A stretch of 64,000 bases of DNA from Verrucomicrobiota bacterium. Lineage in GTDB: Bacteria; Verrucomicrobiota; Verrucomicrobiia; Limisphaerales; J093. Both the position numbers and the translations under genes were made by a program. This document shows, one piece after another, positions 12,654 through 24,199 of this stretch (within the stretch, counting starts at the first letter, position 1; each line of letters opens with the position of its first letter). A model generated the notes under the pieces. It searched no databases, had not been told where the DNA came from, and saw only the letters and a list, made by a program, of their open reading frames with translations. The stretch spans positions 1 through 64,000 of the forward strand of contig JAKLFY010000004.1 in NCBI GenBank assembly GCA_022710935.1, in the 5' to 3' direction.

Positions 12654-13475
12654 TCACTCGTCGGCCGACTCCAACACCTCGAGAATTCGACTGAAAGCGC
12701 CGCGCATTTCGCCATAGGTGACCAGATTCACCGTGAACCGACCGTCGGTGTTCCGGCGCGAGAGGACATGCCCGTCGCTGTAGAGGACGTTCACGAACCT
12801 CTGCCGGTGGTGGGTGCGAGGCTTCACGTTGAACGACTCGAGGCCGGGCGGACAGAGAAACTGGGTGTCCATCGCCAGGGCCCGGATGGGCAGCCCCTTG
12901 CGGTTGTTGCCCAGGCTGGTCAGCCGCGGCGGTGAGGATCCCGACACTGTCGTCGGGTCGTCAAACAACTGCGTGTTGCTGCCATGTCGGTAATAATAAC
13001 TCGCCTGCACCTGGCGCTTGCCCACATTCGCCAGTTCCGCTCCGGCATCTACGGATTGGTCCGGCCCAGGGCAAAAGAGGACGCGCGGCTGATCGGACAG
13101 GTATTGCGACAGGAGCAACCCGAGCCCAACAGGAGCGCCGCCTTGCAGGCCGATGAGGCTGGTTGGCGTGCCGGTCGAGGGATAGAAGCTCGCGGGACTG
13201 GTGAAAGGCGGGGCCTGAGGGCCATAGGGGATCGCGCCATCGTACTCCTCGGCGTAACTGTGGATGGCGAGGCCGATCTGGCGAAGGTTGGACGAGCAGA
13301 CAGCCCGGCGTCCCGCCTCCTTCGCAGCAGCCAGACCGGGAAGCAGCAGGGAGGCAAGCACCGCGACGATCGCGATCACCACGAGCAATTCGACAAGCGT
13401 GAACGCGTCTCGAGCGTGCCCGCCCATGCCCGCCACAAGCCCCCGCGTGAACCGTCTTCGCGAATGGTTGGTCAT
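12654..13475 (-). CDS. Prepilin-like protein with type IV N-terminal methylation motif (DUF1559-like)
   Basis: From the ATG at 13475 the product is 273 residues. After a short basic leader comes the type IV pilin cleavage/methylation motif, [21 protein letters not shown] conserved [21 protein letters not shown] follows. The C-terminus carries [14 protein letters not shown], the H-X9/10-DG block of the DUF1559-type pseudopilins that are hugely expanded in Planctomycetes and Verrucomicrobia. The protein is expected at the inner membrane or in an envelope fibre; its role is unknown. It begins 14 bases after the upstream secreted protein ends, so the two are probably co-transcribed. An in-frame GTG at 13487 is an alternative start. 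Confidence 0.85.
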
Positions 13476-13489
13476 CAACACGACCACCC

Positions 13490-16172: not shown

Positions 16173-16306
16173 TTCGAGGTGCTCGTTGTTCGCAGTCTGT
16201 GGCCCATGAGTCACATCTCCAAGCAGCGCTCTGACATGCGCGGGGGTTCCGGCGGCAAACCGGACAGCCTGAGCATGCGCCTCGTGCTGGGGAAGGAAAC
16301 GTCTTG

Positions 16307-17149
16307 ATGCAGACAGGCCTGATCATCTGCCAATGCGCCCACGCCGGGTTGATCGCGCCCGAGACGCTGGGCAGCCTGGTCTCCAGCCTCCGGGCTCATG
16401 GGACTCCGTTCGACCTGGTGCCGGATCTGTGCGAGTTGGCGGCGCGTCACGATCCGCGCCTCGAGGCCTTGGCCCGCGCGCCGCGTCCGACGGTTCTGGC
16501 CTGCCATGAACGCGCGGTCAGGAGCCTGTTCCACATGGCCGCTGCGCCGCTGGATCCGGCGGGGACGCTGCTGCTCGATGTGCGGACTGGATCGGCTGAC
16601 GAGGCGCTGGCGCGCCTGGGAATCCCGCGGGCCGCGCCCGGCAGTCTCGCGGAGGCCGCCCCGGCGGGCGTGGCGGAGGCGGGCTGGATTCCGTGGTTTC
16701 CGGTGATTGACGGGGAGCGCTGCACCAACTGCCAGCAATGCCTCGGGTTCTGCCTGTTCGGCGTCTACGACCTCTCGCCCGAAGGCCGTGTCCGGGTGGC
16801 CAACCCGCAAGCCTGCAAAACCAACTGTCCGGCGTGTGCGCGCATCTGCCCCGAAGTGGCGATCATCTTCCCGAAATACCAGGAGTCGCCGATCAACGGC
16901 GGGCCGTGCCTGGACGAGGCGAAGGAGAAGGCGCGGATCAAGGCCGATCTCGAGGCCGTTTTGGGTTCGGAGGTCTACGCCAAGCTGGCCGCACGCCGCG
17001 CGAAGGTGGAGCAGAAGCGCCTGCTGCGACAGAACGTGGAACTGGCCGGCGCCGAACGCCAACGGCACCAGGCCGCGGATCCCGCCAAGGGCCTCCGCTC
17101 CCAGGAGCAACCGGCCTGTGACCAAGGCCGCGCCGGAGTGACGTCGTGA
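16307..17149 (+). CDS. Two-[4Fe-4S] ferredoxin-domain protein of an isoprenoid gene set
   Basis: A 280-residue protein from the ATG at 16307, preceded by a good ribosome site (GGAAGGAAA). The N-terminus has a CQC pair (residues 8-10) and a TVLACHERAV segment like those in heterodisulfide-reductase-associated proteins. Two [4Fe-4S] motifs follow: C139, C142, C145, C149 and C170, C174, C177, C181. The C-terminal 90 residues are charged and helical. It likely passes electrons within the cytoplasm, most simply to the radical SAM enzyme whose GTG start overlaps its stop by four bases. Its exact partner and donor are unknown. Confidence 0.82.
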   Translation: MQTGLIICQCAHAGLIAPETLGSLVSSLRAHGTPFDLVPDLCELAARHDPRLEALARAPRPTVLACHERAVRSLFHMAAAPLDPAGTLLLDVRTGSADEALARLGIPRAAPGSLAEAAPAGVAEAGWIPWFPVIDGERCTNCQQCLGFCLFGVYDLSPEGRVRVANPQACKTNCPACARICPEVAIIFPKYQESPINGGPCLDEAKEKARIKADLEAVLGSEVYAKLAARRAKVEQKRLLRQNVELAGAERQRHQAADPAKGLRSQEQPACDQGRAGVTS

Positions 17150-18339
17150 TCCCTGCTTTGTTCAACCGGCTGGTGCGCGAGGTAGATCTCGGTCTGTTGG
17201 CCAAGTGCGCCTGGACACTCGGGTTGGGCGGCGTGCGCAGCGTGCGCGCATTCCAGAAGCGCCTGCGGCGGGGCCGGTTGTTTCCGGCGTTCCTGTTTCT
17301 CTCCGTGACCAACCGGTGCAACCTGAAGTGCCAGGGCTGCTGGGTGACGGCGACCACGCCGCCTGGGGAGCTGGAACCGGCACTGCTGGACCGCATCATC
17401 GCCCAGGCCAAGCGCGAACAATGCCGCTTCTTCGGCATCCTGGGCGGGGAGCCCCTGCTGCATCCGCACCTGCTCGATGTCCTGGGCCGGCACCGGGACT
17501 GCTACTTCCAGGTGTTCACCAACGGCACGGTGCTGGACGGCGAGGCCGCGCGGGCGATGCGCCGCCTGGGCAACGTCACGCCTTTGATCAGCGTCGAGGG
17601 GGGCGAGGCGGTCAGCGACGAACGCCGCGGCGGCACGCGCGTTTACCGGCGGAGTTTGGAAGGGATCGAGTGCTGCCGACGCGAGCGACTGCTTATCGGA
17701 GTCGCCACCAGCATCTGCAAATCGAATTTCCGCGATCTGGTGTCGGAGGCCTTCGTCCGCGAAGTGATCGGGCGGGGGGTCCATTACCTGTGGTATTACA
17801 TTTACCGGCCCATGGGGGCGCAGCCGACGGCGGACCTGTGCTTGTCGGCGGACGAGATCCTGGCGCTGCGGCGCTTCATCGTCGAGATCCGCGGTCGGTT
17901 TCCGCTGATCATCGTCGACGCGTACTGGGACGCCGAGGGGCGCGCCCTGTGCCCGGCGGCCACCGGCATCAGCCATCACATCGGACCATGCGGCGACATC
18001 GAGCCGTGTCCGCCTGTCCAGTTTGCCTGCGAGAACGCGCGCGATGGGGACGACGCAGTCGCGCTCATCGAACGGTCGGCTTTCCTTGATGCGTTTCGGC
18101 GTCTTGCGAGGTCGCAAACACGCGGGTGTCTGTTGCTCGAGTGTCCGGGCGCGCTGCGCGACTTGATGGTTGCCCAGGGGGTCCGCGACACCTCGGGCCG
18201 CGGCACGGCGTTGGCGGAACTGGCTGCGATGCGGTGTCGACCCGGGCATCACATGCCCGGACGGGAGATTCCCGAGAAGCATTGGGCCTACCGGCTCGCC
18301 AAGAAATACTGGTTCTTCGGATTTGGCGCCTATGGCTGA
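17146..18339 (+). CDS. Radical SAM enzyme of an isoprenoid gene set
   Basis: 397 residues, GTG start overlapping the previous stop (GTGA). The radical SAM cluster ligands are C58, C62 and C65 in SVTNRCNLKCQGC. ILGGEPLLHP is the GGE SAM-binding motif. Further cysteines in a C-terminal block (IGPCGDIEPCPP, GCLLLECPG) may bind auxiliary Fe-S clusters, as in SPASM-like proteins. The family cleaves S-adenosylmethionine to a 5'-deoxyadenosyl radical; the substrate here is unknown. It does not look like HpnH, which has a different opening and motif context. Its place between a ferredoxin-type gene and a prenyl synthase suggests it modifies an isoprenoid or its precursor; that is inference. Confidence 0.88.
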   Translation: MIPALFNRLVREVDLGLLAKCAWTLGLGGVRSVRAFQKRLRRGRLFPAFLFLSVTNRCNLKCQGCWVTATTPPGELEPALLDRIIAQAKREQCRFFGILGGEPLLHPHLLDVLGRHRDCYFQVFTNGTVLDGEAARAMRRLGNVTPLISVEGGEAVSDERRGGTRVYRRSLEGIECCRRERLLIGVATSICKSNFRDLVSEAFVREVIGRGVHYLWYYIYRPMGAQPTADLCLSADEILALRRFIVEIRGRFPLIIVDAYWDAEGRALCPAATGISHHIGPCGDIEPCPPVQFACENARDGDDAVALIERSAFLDAFRRLARSQTRGCLLLECPGALRDLMVAQGVRDTSGRGTALAELAAMRCRPGHHMPGREIPEKHWAYRLAKKYWFFGFGAYG

Positions 18340-20011
18340 ACCTTCGCCTCAACCTGTGGCGTCTTTCCCCGCGACCGGAAGGCCGTCGCGCCTCGTGCAG
18401 CGCGTGCCGGAGCAGAAGCCGCTGCGCGAGCTCCTGCGGGCTGCGGCCCGCGACCATGTCGCGCGCCAGCGGCTTGTCCCTCCGCTCACGCTCGAAGAGT
18501 TGCGCGCGCATGCCCGCGCGGTGATCGACGCGCTCGGCCAGGATCCGGGCTACAGCGATTTCACGACGGTCATGCTCGGGAACGAGACGTGGCGCGAAAC
18601 GCTGGCGGGCATTCCATTCGACCGGCGCGTGGTCTTGCTGCCGCAGTGCCTGCGCACGCGCGCCGTGTGTCCGGCGGAGATGGACGAGTTCGGCCTGCTG
18701 TGCGAGCAGTGCGGGCGCTGTCTGATCGGGGAGTTGCAGGCGGAGGCCCAGGCGCTGGGGTGCGTCGCGCTCGTCGCCGAAGGCACGACCGTGGTCACCC
18801 GGCTGCTCGAACAGGGCCGGGTCGACGCGGTGATCGGCGTGAGCTGCCTGCACGTGCTCGAACGCGCCTTTCCCCACGCGGCCATGCACGCCATCCCGGG
18901 CATCGCGATCCCCTTGTTCCGCGACGGATGCGACACGACCGGCGTGGATGCGGACTGGGTGCGCGAGGCGATGCGGCTCAAGTCCGACGTCCGGTGGCCC
19001 GGGCGGCTGGACATCGACGCGCTGCGGCGCGAGGTGGAACGGTGGTTTCAAAAAGATGCCCTCCAGAGCGTCCTGGGCTGCGGAGGCACGTTCACGGAAC
19101 TCACGGCCCTCGAGTGGCTGGCGCAGGCGGGCAAGCGCTGGCGTCCGCTGCTTGCCGTCTGCGTCCACAACACGCTCGCGGGCCTGGGGGACGCCGATTC
19201 CCTGCCCGACTTCGTGCGCAAGGTGGCCCTGGCGACGGAGTGCTTCCACAAGGCCTCCCTCCTGCACGACGATATCGAAGACGGCGACGAGTTCCGGTAC
19301 GGCGCCCCGACACTGGCCCGCCAGCACGGCATGCCCGTCGCGCTGAACCTGGGCGACTACCTGATCGGCGAGGGCTACCGCTTGCTGGCCGAGAGCGGAC
19401 TCACCCCCTTCCAACAGGCACGCGCCCTGAAGATCGCCGCCGAAGGCCATCGTTCCCTCTGCCTGGGACAAGGCGCCGAGTTGAATTGGATGCGCTCCTC
19501 CTCGCCCCTGTCCACCCCGCAGGTGCTCGATCTGTTCCGGCGCAAGACGGCGCCCGCGTTCGAGGTCGCACTGCGCCTGGGGGCCGTGTGTGCGGACGCG
19601 GACGAGGCGCTGGAAGAGCCGCTGCAGCGCTTCAGCGCCGCCGTGGGCATCGCCTATCAAATCCGGGACGACCTCGAAGACGCTTTCGATCCCCAGGCCC
19701 CCGGCGACGCCGCGGCCCGGCGCCCCTCGATCCTGGTCTCCATCGCCTGCGAACAGGCCTCCGGCGACGCCCGTGCCCGGCTGCAACTGGCCCTCGACGC
19801 GCAGGCATCCGCCCCCACCCGCAGAGAGATCTTCCGCGACGTCTTTCTCATGTTGCGCACCGAGGACAAGGCCCGCCAACTGCTCGAACACTATCGCAAC
19901 CAAGCCCAGCGCTCGCTCAGCCCGCTTCGGAACGCCCATCTCAAAGGCCTGCTGCGGCGGCTGGTCGGGCGGCTCCTCGGCCCCCCGGCAACCTCGGCTG
20001 CCAAGGCATGA
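18332..20011 (+). CDS. DUF116-polyprenyl diphosphate synthase fusion
   Basis: 559 residues from the ATG at 18332, which overlaps the radical SAM stop by eight bases. Residues 95-205 match DUF116: VVLLPQCLRTRAVCPAE and a Cys cluster (C106, C113, C124, C127, C130, C144, C172, C200) able to hold Fe-S or zinc. Residues 255-559 are a trans-isoprenyl diphosphate synthase with GKRWRPLL, a first aspartate-rich motif DDIED (313-317) and a second DDLED (446-450). The residues four and five places before the first motif are Ser and Ala, the pattern of long-chain synthases rather than FPP synthase. It should elongate allylic diphosphates with IPP. Its fusion to DUF116 is unusual, and the role of that half is unknown. 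Confidence 0.88.
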   Translation: MAEPSPQPVASFPATGRPSRLVQRVPEQKPLRELLRAAARDHVARQRLVPPLTLEELRAHARAVIDALGQDPGYSDFTTVMLGNETWRETLAGIPFDRRVVLLPQCLRTRAVCPAEMDEFGLLCEQCGRCLIGELQAEAQALGCVALVAEGTTVVTRLLEQGRVDAVIGVSCLHVLERAFPHAAMHAIPGIAIPLFRDGCDTTGVDADWVREAMRLKSDVRWPGRLDIDALRREVERWFQKDALQSVLGCGGTFTELTALEWLAQAGKRWRPLLAVCVHNTLAGLGDADSLPDFVRKVALATECFHKASLLHDDIEDGDEFRYGAPTLARQHGMPVALNLGDYLIGEGYRLLAESGLTPFQQARALKIAAEGHRSLCLGQGAELNWMRSSSPLSTPQVLDLFRRKTAPAFEVALRLGAVCADADEALEEPLQRFSAAVGIAYQIRDDLEDAFDPQAPGDAAARRPSILVSIACEQASGDARARLQLALDAQASAPTRREIFRDVFLMLRTEDKARQLLEHYRNQAQRSLSPLRNAHLKGLLRRLVGRLLGPPATSAAKA

Positions 20012-20946
20012 AACCGGCCGCGCCTGACCCCCGCGCTCCGAGTCTCCGCACCCGCTGTGCCCCTGCGCTCGAGCAGGCCCTGGCCCGCGCCGCCGCAAGC
20101 CTCGACACCCAGGCCCGCACCGCCCTGCGCGCATTCGTTCGCGCCCAGTTGGCCGCGGATGGGGGATTTCGCGGGCGAAGCGGGGATGGAGACCTCTATT
20201 ACACCGTATTCGGTCTGGAGTGCGCCCGCGCGCTCGAGATCGATGTGCCGGTCGAACCCATTCGCCGCTTCGTCGAGTCCCGGCTCGATGCCTCGTTGGA
20301 CTTCGTGCACCTGACTTGTCTGGTGCGCTGCATCGAGATCCTCGCCCCCGACGGCGCGCCGCTGGCGTGCGGCGCAGGCCTCAGCGAACGGCTTGCGCGC
20401 CATGCATGCGCCGAAGGCGGCTATCATCGGCACCCCGCCCGGCGCAGAGGGAGCGTCTACGAGAGTTTCATCGGCGCCCTGGCGGCCGAGTCCCTGCGCG
20501 AAGCGCTTCCGAATCCGGGCGGCCTGGGCGCGATTCTGGCCGGCCTGGGGAAAGCCTCCGGAGGGTTCGTCAACAGTGAGGGATGGGGAGTCGCGAGTAC
20601 GCCGGCAAGCGCCGCAGCGCTGCTGTTGCTGCACGAGCTGGGGGAGCCGTTGCCGCCCAAGAGCGTCGCGTGGCTCCTGGGCCAGCAGCGGGCAGGGGGC
20701 GGTTTCGCGGCGGCGCCGCTGGCGCCCATATCGGATCTGCTCTCGACCGCGACCGCGCTGCACGCCTTGAACCGGATCGGCGCGCTGCAGGGCGTCGCAA
20801 TCGATCGCTGCCTCGATTTCGTGACCGGGTGCTGGGACGATTCGGGCGGGTTCCACGCGCACGCGTTCGATCGAAGACCGGATTGCGAATACGCCTTTTA
20901 CGGTCTCCTGGCGCTTGGCAACCTGGTCGCCCCGGGTGGCATCTGA
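20008..20946 (+). CDS. Alpha/alpha-toroid protein of the prenyltransferase-beta/squalene cyclase superfamily
   Basis: The ATG at 20008 overlaps the preceding stop (ATGA); the product is 312 residues. It consists of repeated toroid units such as DGDLYYTVFGLECARAL, VYESFIGALAAESL, TPASAAALLLLHEL, DLLSTATALHALNRIG and CEYAFYGLLALG, with Gly-rich turns between. The overall size matches protein geranylgeranyl/farnesyl transferase beta subunits. However, the zinc-binding Cys and His seen in DVC and YHT of true beta subunits are replaced (SDLLS, EYAFY). It may therefore bind or hold a prenyl chain rather than prenylate proteins. It lies directly before the class II cyclase gene. Confidence 0.75.
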   Translation: MKPAAPDPRAPSLRTRCAPALEQALARAAASLDTQARTALRAFVRAQLAADGGFRGRSGDGDLYYTVFGLECARALEIDVPVEPIRRFVESRLDASLDFVHLTCLVRCIEILAPDGAPLACGAGLSERLARHACAEGGYHRHPARRRGSVYESFIGALAAESLREALPNPGGLGAILAGLGKASGGFVNSEGWGVASTPASAAALLLLHELGEPLPPKSVAWLLGQQRAGGGFAAAPLAPISDLLSTATALHALNRIGALQGVAIDRCLDFVTGCWDDSGGFHAHAFDRRPDCEYAFYGLLALGNLVAPGGI

Positions 20947-20960
20947 CCCGCTGCAACGCT

Positions 20961-22790
20961 ATGTCCGCCAACCCCCTGGATCGCCAGAGCATCGCCGCGG
21001 CGGCGCGCAATGCCCGGCGCGCCCTTCTGGAGCGGATGACGCCCGATGGCCATTGGACGGGGCATTTGTCCAGCAGCGCACTGTCCACGGCCGTGGCCGC
21101 GGCCGCGTTGGGGCTTGTGGATGCCAAGGCGCACGCCGGCCTGGTCAGCCGCGGCCTGATCTGGCTGGCAGAACATCAACGTGCGGACGGCGGGTGGGGC
21201 GACACGCCTTCCAGCCCGGCCAATCTCAGCACGACGCTGCTGAGCTGGGCCGCGTTCGATCACGCCGCGGACGGGACCGTCCACCGGGGCGCTTGCGAGC
21301 GTGCGCAGCGGTGGCTGGAGAAGCGGCTGGGCAGCCTGGCCCCGGATCAGATCGCCGATCGCGTGCTCGAGGCGTACGGAAAGGACCGCACCTTCTCGGT
21401 GCCGATCCTCACGTTCTGCGCGCTGTGTGGTCGGTTGGGCGATTCGGACCTGGCCTGGACCGCCGTTCCCCAGTTGCCTTTCGAGCTGGCCGCCCTGCCG
21501 CATCGGTTCTTCAAGTGGCTGCGCCTCCCCGTGGTCAGCTACGCAGTGCCCGCGCTGATCGCGATCGGCCTGGCCCGCCACGAGCACACGGGGCATGGGG
21601 TCCGCCCCTTGCACCGCCTGCGCGACGCGCTCAAACCACGCGTTCTCAGAATCCTCAGGGACATCCAGCCCGCCGGCGGCGGATTCCTCGAAGCGATCCC
21701 CCTGACCGGTTTCGTCGTCTCGGCTCTGGCGGGGTGCGGATTGCGCTCGCATCCCGTGGCGATTGCGGGCGCGGATTTCCTGGCCCGCACGGTGCGTGCG
21801 GACGGCAGTTGGCCGATCGACGTCAACCTGAGCACATGGGTCACCACGTTAAGCATCGGCGCCTTTGGCTGCGGCTCGGAACCGCTCGCGGGTCTGGATT
21901 CGGGCCGGCGACGCGCCCTCTTGAACTGGCTGCTGGGGCAGCAGCACCAGGCCGAGCATCCCTTCACCCACGCGGCCCCGGGCGGCTGGGCGTGGACCGA
22001 CCTTGCCGGGGGCGTGCCCGATGCCGACGATACGGCCGGCGCGCTCCTGGCTCTGGATGCGCTGGACCCGAACTCGCCTGAGGCGCGCGCCGCCGCCGGG
22101 CGCGGCATTCAGTGGCTGCTCGACCTGCAGAATCGCGACGGCGGCATTCCGACGTTCTGCCGCGGCTGGTCGAATCTGCCGTTTGATCGCAGTTGTCCGG
22201 ACATCACCGCCCATGCCCTGGCGGCCTGGGCGGCCTGGCAACCGCGCCTCGACGCGCGCCTGCGGGCGCACGTGGACCGCGCCGCCCACCGCGCGCTCGA
22301 ATCCCTGCTCCGCGCCCAGCGTCGGGACGGAGCCTGGATTCCGTTGTGGTTCGGCAACCAGCACGCCGCGCGGCTCGAGAATCCTGTGTACGGGACATCG
22401 CGCGTCCTGCTGGCCCTGCAGCGGGTTCGCGGCCGATTCGGAGCCGGGGTTCAGGCCGCCATCGCGCGCGGCGGGGCGTGGCTGCGGCAGAGCCAGCAGG
22501 CGGACGGGGGTTGGGGGGGATCAGCCGGAGCCCCGGCGACAGTCGAGGAGACGGCCCTGGCCTTGCAGGCCGCGATGGGCGGCCAGGACGCCGGGAGTGG
22601 AACCGTGGGCCGCGGCCTGGCGTGGTTGGCGGGCGCGACGCAGGGCGGCACGGTCTTTCCCTCCTCCCCCATCGGGCTGTATTTCGCGGCGTTGTGGTAC
22701 GCCGAAGAGCTCTATCCGATCATCTTCAGTTGTGCGGCCTTCGGATGCGCGGAAGCGCTCGACGGCTCGACAGGCGCCTTGCAGCGCTGA
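20961..22790 (+). CDS. Class II terpene cyclase, squalene-hopene cyclase-like
   Basis: 609 residues from the ATG at 20961, 14 bases after the previous gene. The class II protonation motif is intact as D354-A-D-D357 ([11 protein letters not shown]). QW-type repeats are present: [25 protein letters not shown] and QADGGWGG. The length is close to the squalene-hopene cyclase norm of about 630. These enzymes protonate a terminal double bond and fold a linear polyprene into rings at the membrane surface. The usual hopanoid partners (hpnC, hpnD, hpnE) are not in the window, so the substrate may be a product of the neighbouring prenyl synthase rather than squalene; that is inference. Confidence 0.9.

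Positions 22791-22834: not shown

Positions 22835-24199
<1,365 letters not shown>

Follow-up and report, generated by a model that had tools for sequence, protein, structure and literature searches.

What is a cysteine-rich DUF116 domain doing on a polyprenyl synthase, and which pathway would such a protein serve? The question is raised by a single gene in the window, that is, the whole 64,000-nucleotide stretch of a Verrucomicrobiota contig analysed here. The gene and its recognisable parts are as follows.

18332-20011, + strand: DUF116-polyprenyl synthase fusion, 559 aa in one stop-free frame
18401-19003, + strand: DUF116 part, residues 24-224 (Pfam, AlphaFold2 model, cysteine conservation)
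19268-19282, + strand: first aspartate-rich motif, DDIED, residues 313-317, inside ECFHKASLLHDDIED
19667-19681, + strand: second aspartate-rich motif, DDLED, residues 446-450

Architecture and distribution of the fusion

The first-pass annotation, which described DUF116 and a synthase in one continuous frame, was right wherever the sequence can check it. Both Pfam domains were recognised above their curated cut-offs in the 559-residue translation, DUF116 (PF01976) at residues 64-214 (108.3 bits against a cut-off of 25, E 3e-31) and polyprenyl_synt (PF00348) at residues 263-492 (135.8 bits against 27, E 2e-39). Both aspartate-rich motifs are intact, Ala and Ser stand at positions -5 and -4 of the first (A308 and S309), and the Cys-rich region running from C106 to C200 comprises C106, C113, C124, C127, C130, C172 and C200. 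A sequencing or frame error fusing two genes is ruled out by full-length conservation across other genomes; in 40 other loci the protein is kept whole, with about 38-88% identity and all seven cysteines invariant, and is therefore neither an artefact nor a chance arrangement.

The fusion was found in 34 of 58 related genomes (the window's own counted), mostly at 47-88% identity over 530-560 residues, the match being split in a few of them and in one case lying across two contigs. It was also found in 32 of 194 genomes sampled across the phylum, one of these being a partial match only. In a scan of genome contigs, relatives were encoded at 551 places; by record name, the 80 best of these belong to Verrucomicrobia, Kiritimatiellae, Lentisphaeria, Planctomycetota, Acidobacteria and others, and include the cultured Chthoniobacter flavus Ellin428. 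Nearly all DUF116 genes within the class lie in a long open frame, as a fusion would predict, and about 50 of 66 do so within the phylum.

Among the 41 fusions from the whole-protein search, variation is absent or almost absent at the seven cysteines and along the stretch ECFHKASLxHDDIEDxD. The same cysteines are identical in all 110 aligned fusion copies. So are K307, A308, S309, D313, D314, D317, D446 and D447 and the residues from -4 to -7 ahead of the first motif, with F305 (position -8) kept in 109, although for the Asp-motif stretch this set is biased, having been partly retrieved by patterns taken from that stretch.

The fusion itself is already in print. Makarova et al. (2015; PMC5898192) gave one sentence to a DUF116-polyprenyl synthetase fusion, Psta_0175 of Pirellula staleyi, which has the same two-domain architecture, and also inferred a flavodoxin-like, Cys-rich, electron-transfer DUF116. 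All neighbouring genes are labelled energy-conversion genes in that paper, which, unlike the present study, describes neither an operon nor a link to a radical SAM protein or cyclase and gives no conservation analysis. What is new here is the conserved operon of the fusion and its co-occurrence with a radical SAM protein.

The DUF116 domain

The cysteine set of the DUF116 part consists of a CxxCxxC array (C124xxC127xxC130) and four further residues, and the same seven were found in two standalone DUF116 proteins at only 26-27% identity. Their retention in standalone proteins makes them a property of the DUF116 family. DUF116 is probably an iron-sulfur domain, with both its metal content and a role in electron transfer suggested purely by the conservation of these cysteines; a literature search turned up no biochemistry on DUF116.

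Modelled alone with AlphaFold2, the DUF116 part gave a pLDDT of 91.6. Three helices at the N-terminus precede an alpha/beta core, which is flavodoxin-like and has the seven invariant cysteines. A flavodoxin-like fold had been proposed for DUF116 from HHpred (PMC5898192). The assignment to a known solved fold was dropped, as Foldseek found nothing below E 0.001 and the best VIA match reached a Z of 7.2, which is typical of common alpha/beta arrangements.

The whole-protein model has a mean pLDDT of 85 and lower confidence around residues 101-130. This dip would fit a cofactor loop predicted without its cofactor, and the invariant cysteines sit on an enzyme that is not itself a redox enzyme, both of which are in keeping with DUF116 acting as a redox or iron sensor in which oxidative loss of the cluster alters synthase activity or partner binding. 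We consider a sensor quite unlikely, since it leaves unexplained both the strict co-occurrence of the fusion with a radical SAM gene and the link of standalone DUF116 with IspH and desaturase genes, which are described below.

The synthase domain and its product

Residues 226-553 of the fusion model match GGPP and FPP synthases with Z scores of about 34, and residues 226-552 superpose on the GGPP synthase 3qqv with a Z of 33.9 and an rmsd of 2.7 over 321 residues; the model thus has the isoprenoid-synthase fold of the PF00348 class. The domain resembles the trans-polyprenyl synthases (PF00348; IspB-, HepT- and GGPP-synthase types) in its fold, in its FARM and SARM motifs and in its GKRWRP region, and the long-chain members in the small residue at -5. 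It differs from them in its N-terminal DUF116, in the invariant ECFHKAS signature and in the Phe at -8.

A bulky residue at -8 can make a deeper floor to the chain pocket. In the alignments the FPP and GGPP synthases have Tyr or Phe at -5 (3p8r, 1wy0 and 5jfq, with Tyr in 1wy0 and Phe in 5jfq), as does a paralogue in the same genome (L002, Tyr). The fusion has Ala there, as does the long-chain comparator 3oyr, a Caulobacter trans-isoprenyl synthase with Ile at -8. Mutating the -5 residue gives a longer product (reviewed in PMC4244643). The small residue therefore argues for a product of C20 or longer, and this part of the earlier claim stands; the comparison made there with octaprenyl-type residues fits at -5, but the nearly invariant Phe at -8 is bulkier than the Ile of 3oyr, so that an octaprenyl length should not be assumed. 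The fusion scores far below the cut-off of every product-specific NCBIfam model, including the octaprenyl (55.0 against 412) and solanesyl (55.9 against 383) equivalogs. Judged from these residues, a C20-C30 product appears as likely as C40.

Genes surrounding the fusion

The fusion is the third of five genes in one direction, in the order ferredoxin-like, radical SAM, fusion, toroid and cyclase-like, and the same set recurs in relatives.

16304-17149, + strand: ferredoxin-like protein, N-terminal Cys domain (CxC) and 2[4Fe-4S] domain (Pfam Fer4_10)
17146-18339, + strand: radical SAM protein (PF04055, E 6e-18), CNLKCQGC at 17317-17340
20008-20946, + strand: alpha-alpha toroid protein, prenyltransferase/cyclase fold, without DXDD (PF00432, E 2e-7)
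20961-22790, + strand: squalene-hopene-cyclase-like protein, 609 aa (PF13243, E 7e-33)
22020-22034, + strand: DADDT (DXDD motif) of the cyclase-like protein

The genes across 16304-20946 overlap by 4-8 bases (the radical SAM gene overlaps the ferredoxin-like gene by 4 and the fusion by 8), and the cyclase-like gene begins 15 bases further on. A promoter scan of the region gave one weak site, at its far end, and a terminator scan gave fewer sites than chance. The eight ferredoxin cysteines are invariant (95% threshold) in 53 sequences of the ferredoxin-like protein; judging from match ranges, many relatives encode its N-terminal part and its ferredoxin part in separate genes. In 65 sequences of the radical SAM protein, the CxxxCxxC motif is kept at the same threshold along with C269, C288 and C328, the latter three being candidates for ligands of an auxiliary cluster. 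Among 31 aligned cyclase-like sequences the DADDT motif is likewise invariant at the 95% threshold, so that they carry the catalytic DXDD motif.

Among 47 relatives with sufficient upstream flank, the radical SAM gene lies upstream in 29 and the ferredoxin-like gene in 33; among 47 with sufficient downstream flank, the toroid gene was found in 32 and the cyclase-like gene in 20. Cyclisation may therefore be dispensable, given that the cyclase-like gene is near the fusion in under half of these relatives.

Upstream additions in many relatives encode a cysteine desulfurase, a GcvH-like protein and a CobW/HypB-type GTPase. All three resemble maturation-type proteins and would suit a DUF116 that helps to build one or more Fe-S clusters for the radical SAM partner, or to insert them, and is only kept in place by its attachment to the synthase. 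The genome of the window has no match to the CobW/HypB-type GTPase, though, and the desulfurase, GcvH-like and CobW-type genes are absent from many fusion loci, and such a maturation role seems very unlikely. In the extended operons (L047:4556-7341 and its equivalents, about 25 loci) the desulfurase is of the DndA/IscS type and all the added genes are co-directional with the radical SAM gene and the fusion. The GcvH-like protein has a Lys at its lipoyl-type site.

Co-occurrence with the radical SAM protein

That the neighbouring radical SAM protein is a partner of the fusion, as had been supposed in the first-pass annotation, was supported by the genomes of relatives. Of the 34 fusion-bearing genomes among the 58 relatives, 32 also encode the radical SAM orthologue, which the other 24 relatives all lack (Fisher p 2.5e-14, kinship ignored). 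Furthermore, 12 genomes were picked for having no radical SAM match beside the fusion, and 10 of them encode an orthologue elsewhere (47-53% identity). Several of these 12 loci are short contigs on which the neighbour could have been cut off, and five have ample flank on both sides with no cluster gene whatever. This co-occurrence is the strongest evidence that the fusion and the radical SAM protein act in one pathway, and the two together point to an undescribed bacterial terpenoid pathway.

Comparison with hopanoid biosynthesis

An isoprenoid pathway that combines a radical SAM protein with a DXDD-bearing protein of the cyclase type recalls, in outline, the hopanoid system with its squalene-hopene cyclase and HpnH. 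The proteins of the window differ from that system in falling far below the corresponding cut-offs, the cyclase-like protein scoring 92.4 against 431 for the hopene-cyclase equivalog and the radical SAM protein 33.9 against 225 for HpnH. An ordinary hopanoid operon was rejected, as the same genome has a hopene-cyclase-type gene (466 bits; L127, on G000:C86) and two squalene/phytoene synthase (SQS_PSY) genes (L125 and L126, on G000:C197), all on contigs away from the window. With a full squalene-hopene-cyclase-type gene elsewhere in the genome, the cyclase-like gene of the window is best regarded as a diverged relative.

Standalone DUF116 genes

Twelve standalone DUF116 genes from other classes of the same phylum were surveyed. 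The gene adjoins IspH in three of these loci (L184, L185 and L189; LYTB, E below 1e-87) and a CrtI-like flavin desaturase in five (L183, L187, L189, L190 and L191), the CrtI-like label resting on Amino_oxidase matches and a reading of the sequences rather than on a specific model. Taken together, seven of the twelve have one or both of these neighbours. At none of the 12 did BLAST find a radical SAM gene closer than about 3 kb. In the window's family, a different standalone DUF116 lies directly 5' of a radical SAM gene in all three genomes that were compared. A general partnership of DUF116 with radical SAM proteins was thus not upheld, as it applies to all three genomes from the window's family but to none of the 12 loci of other classes. 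Given the IspH, CrtI-like and radical SAM neighbours, DUF116 appears to associate with isoprenoid and Fe-S enzymes whether fused or unfused.

At the loci of the window's family (L148:3191-6960, on contig C23 of the same genome, L149 and L150), this second DUF116 is followed by a radical SAM/SPASM-like gene. The genes that come next in L148 encode an FAD protein resembling a reductase or lycopene cyclase, and a lipoate ligase.

IspH is a [4Fe-4S] reductase that requires an electron donor. DUF116 could accordingly be an electron donor or tether for this precursor-supply enzyme, with the fusion channelling IPP and DMAPP into elongation and the radical SAM protein serving another step of the same pathway. 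The standalone genes beside IspH in three loci and beside CrtI-like genes in five agree with this, as does the flavodoxin-like core of the DUF116 model, which would suit a small electron carrier (PMC5898192). The conserved neighbours of the fusion were not found to include IspH, however, and the radical SAM gene follows the fusion almost perfectly, and a role in precursor supply is held to be unlikely.

A proposed terpenoid pathway

The explanation tentatively preferred here, at a little under an even chance, is that the fusion makes the prenyl chain in a dedicated terpenoid pathway, in which DUF116 links the synthase to Fe-S partners and a radical SAM enzyme carries out a modification. The C-terminal domain would condense IPP to form an all-trans prenyl diphosphate at least C20 long. 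DUF116 would be a small Fe-S electron-transfer or docking module for isoprenoid enzymes, physically tying chain synthesis to the ferredoxin-like protein and the radical SAM enzyme. The cyclase-like protein, with its DXDD motif, and the accompanying toroid protein may act on the prenyl chain, and the radical SAM enzyme would modify either the chain or the cyclase product. The end product would be a membrane-associated terpenoid different from ordinary hopanoids. The domain make-up, the motif conservation, the order of the genes, the co-occurrence and the presence of another, full cyclase gene in this genome are observed; we infer the Fe-S content, the electron flow, the chain length, the cyclisation and the order of these steps. 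A bolder form of the proposal, which seems rather unlikely, would make DUF116 an isoprenoid-specific Fe-S carrier and the fusion the core of an undescribed pathway of Verrucomicrobia, Planctomycetota and Acidobacteria, in which freshly made prenyl chains, perhaps after cyclisation, are direct substrates of the radical SAM enzyme and end up as a new class of bacterial membrane terpenoids.

The enzyme classes of the system are well known, and it is their conserved combination that is new. The pairing of an isoprenoid enzyme with its own, adjacently encoded Fe-S protein has a parallel in the geranylgeranyl reductase of Methanosarcina, which requires an upstream ferredoxin for activity in E. coli (reviewed in PMC4244643). 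That system differs in that the enzyme is a reductase rather than a synthase and the proteins are separate and unfused. No literature was found describing the operon, or DUF116 together with a radical SAM protein or with IspH, which is weak evidence as subscription papers lay mostly outside the search.

If the preferred explanation is true, it would provide the first testable function for DUF116, a methanogen and bacterial family without an assigned role, and would add a terpenoid pathway common to environmental phyla whose lipids are poorly known. Chthoniobacter flavus is a cultured carrier of the fusion, so that deletion and lipid analysis are conceivable.

Other genes of the window

Directly 3' of the operon lies a class II aminoacyl-tRNA synthetase gene (D/K/N class by Pfam; 22835-24199, + strand), which is absent among the conserved neighbours of relatives. 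A prepilin-like protein with an N-terminal cleavage/methylation-type motif is encoded at 12654-13487 on the - strand.
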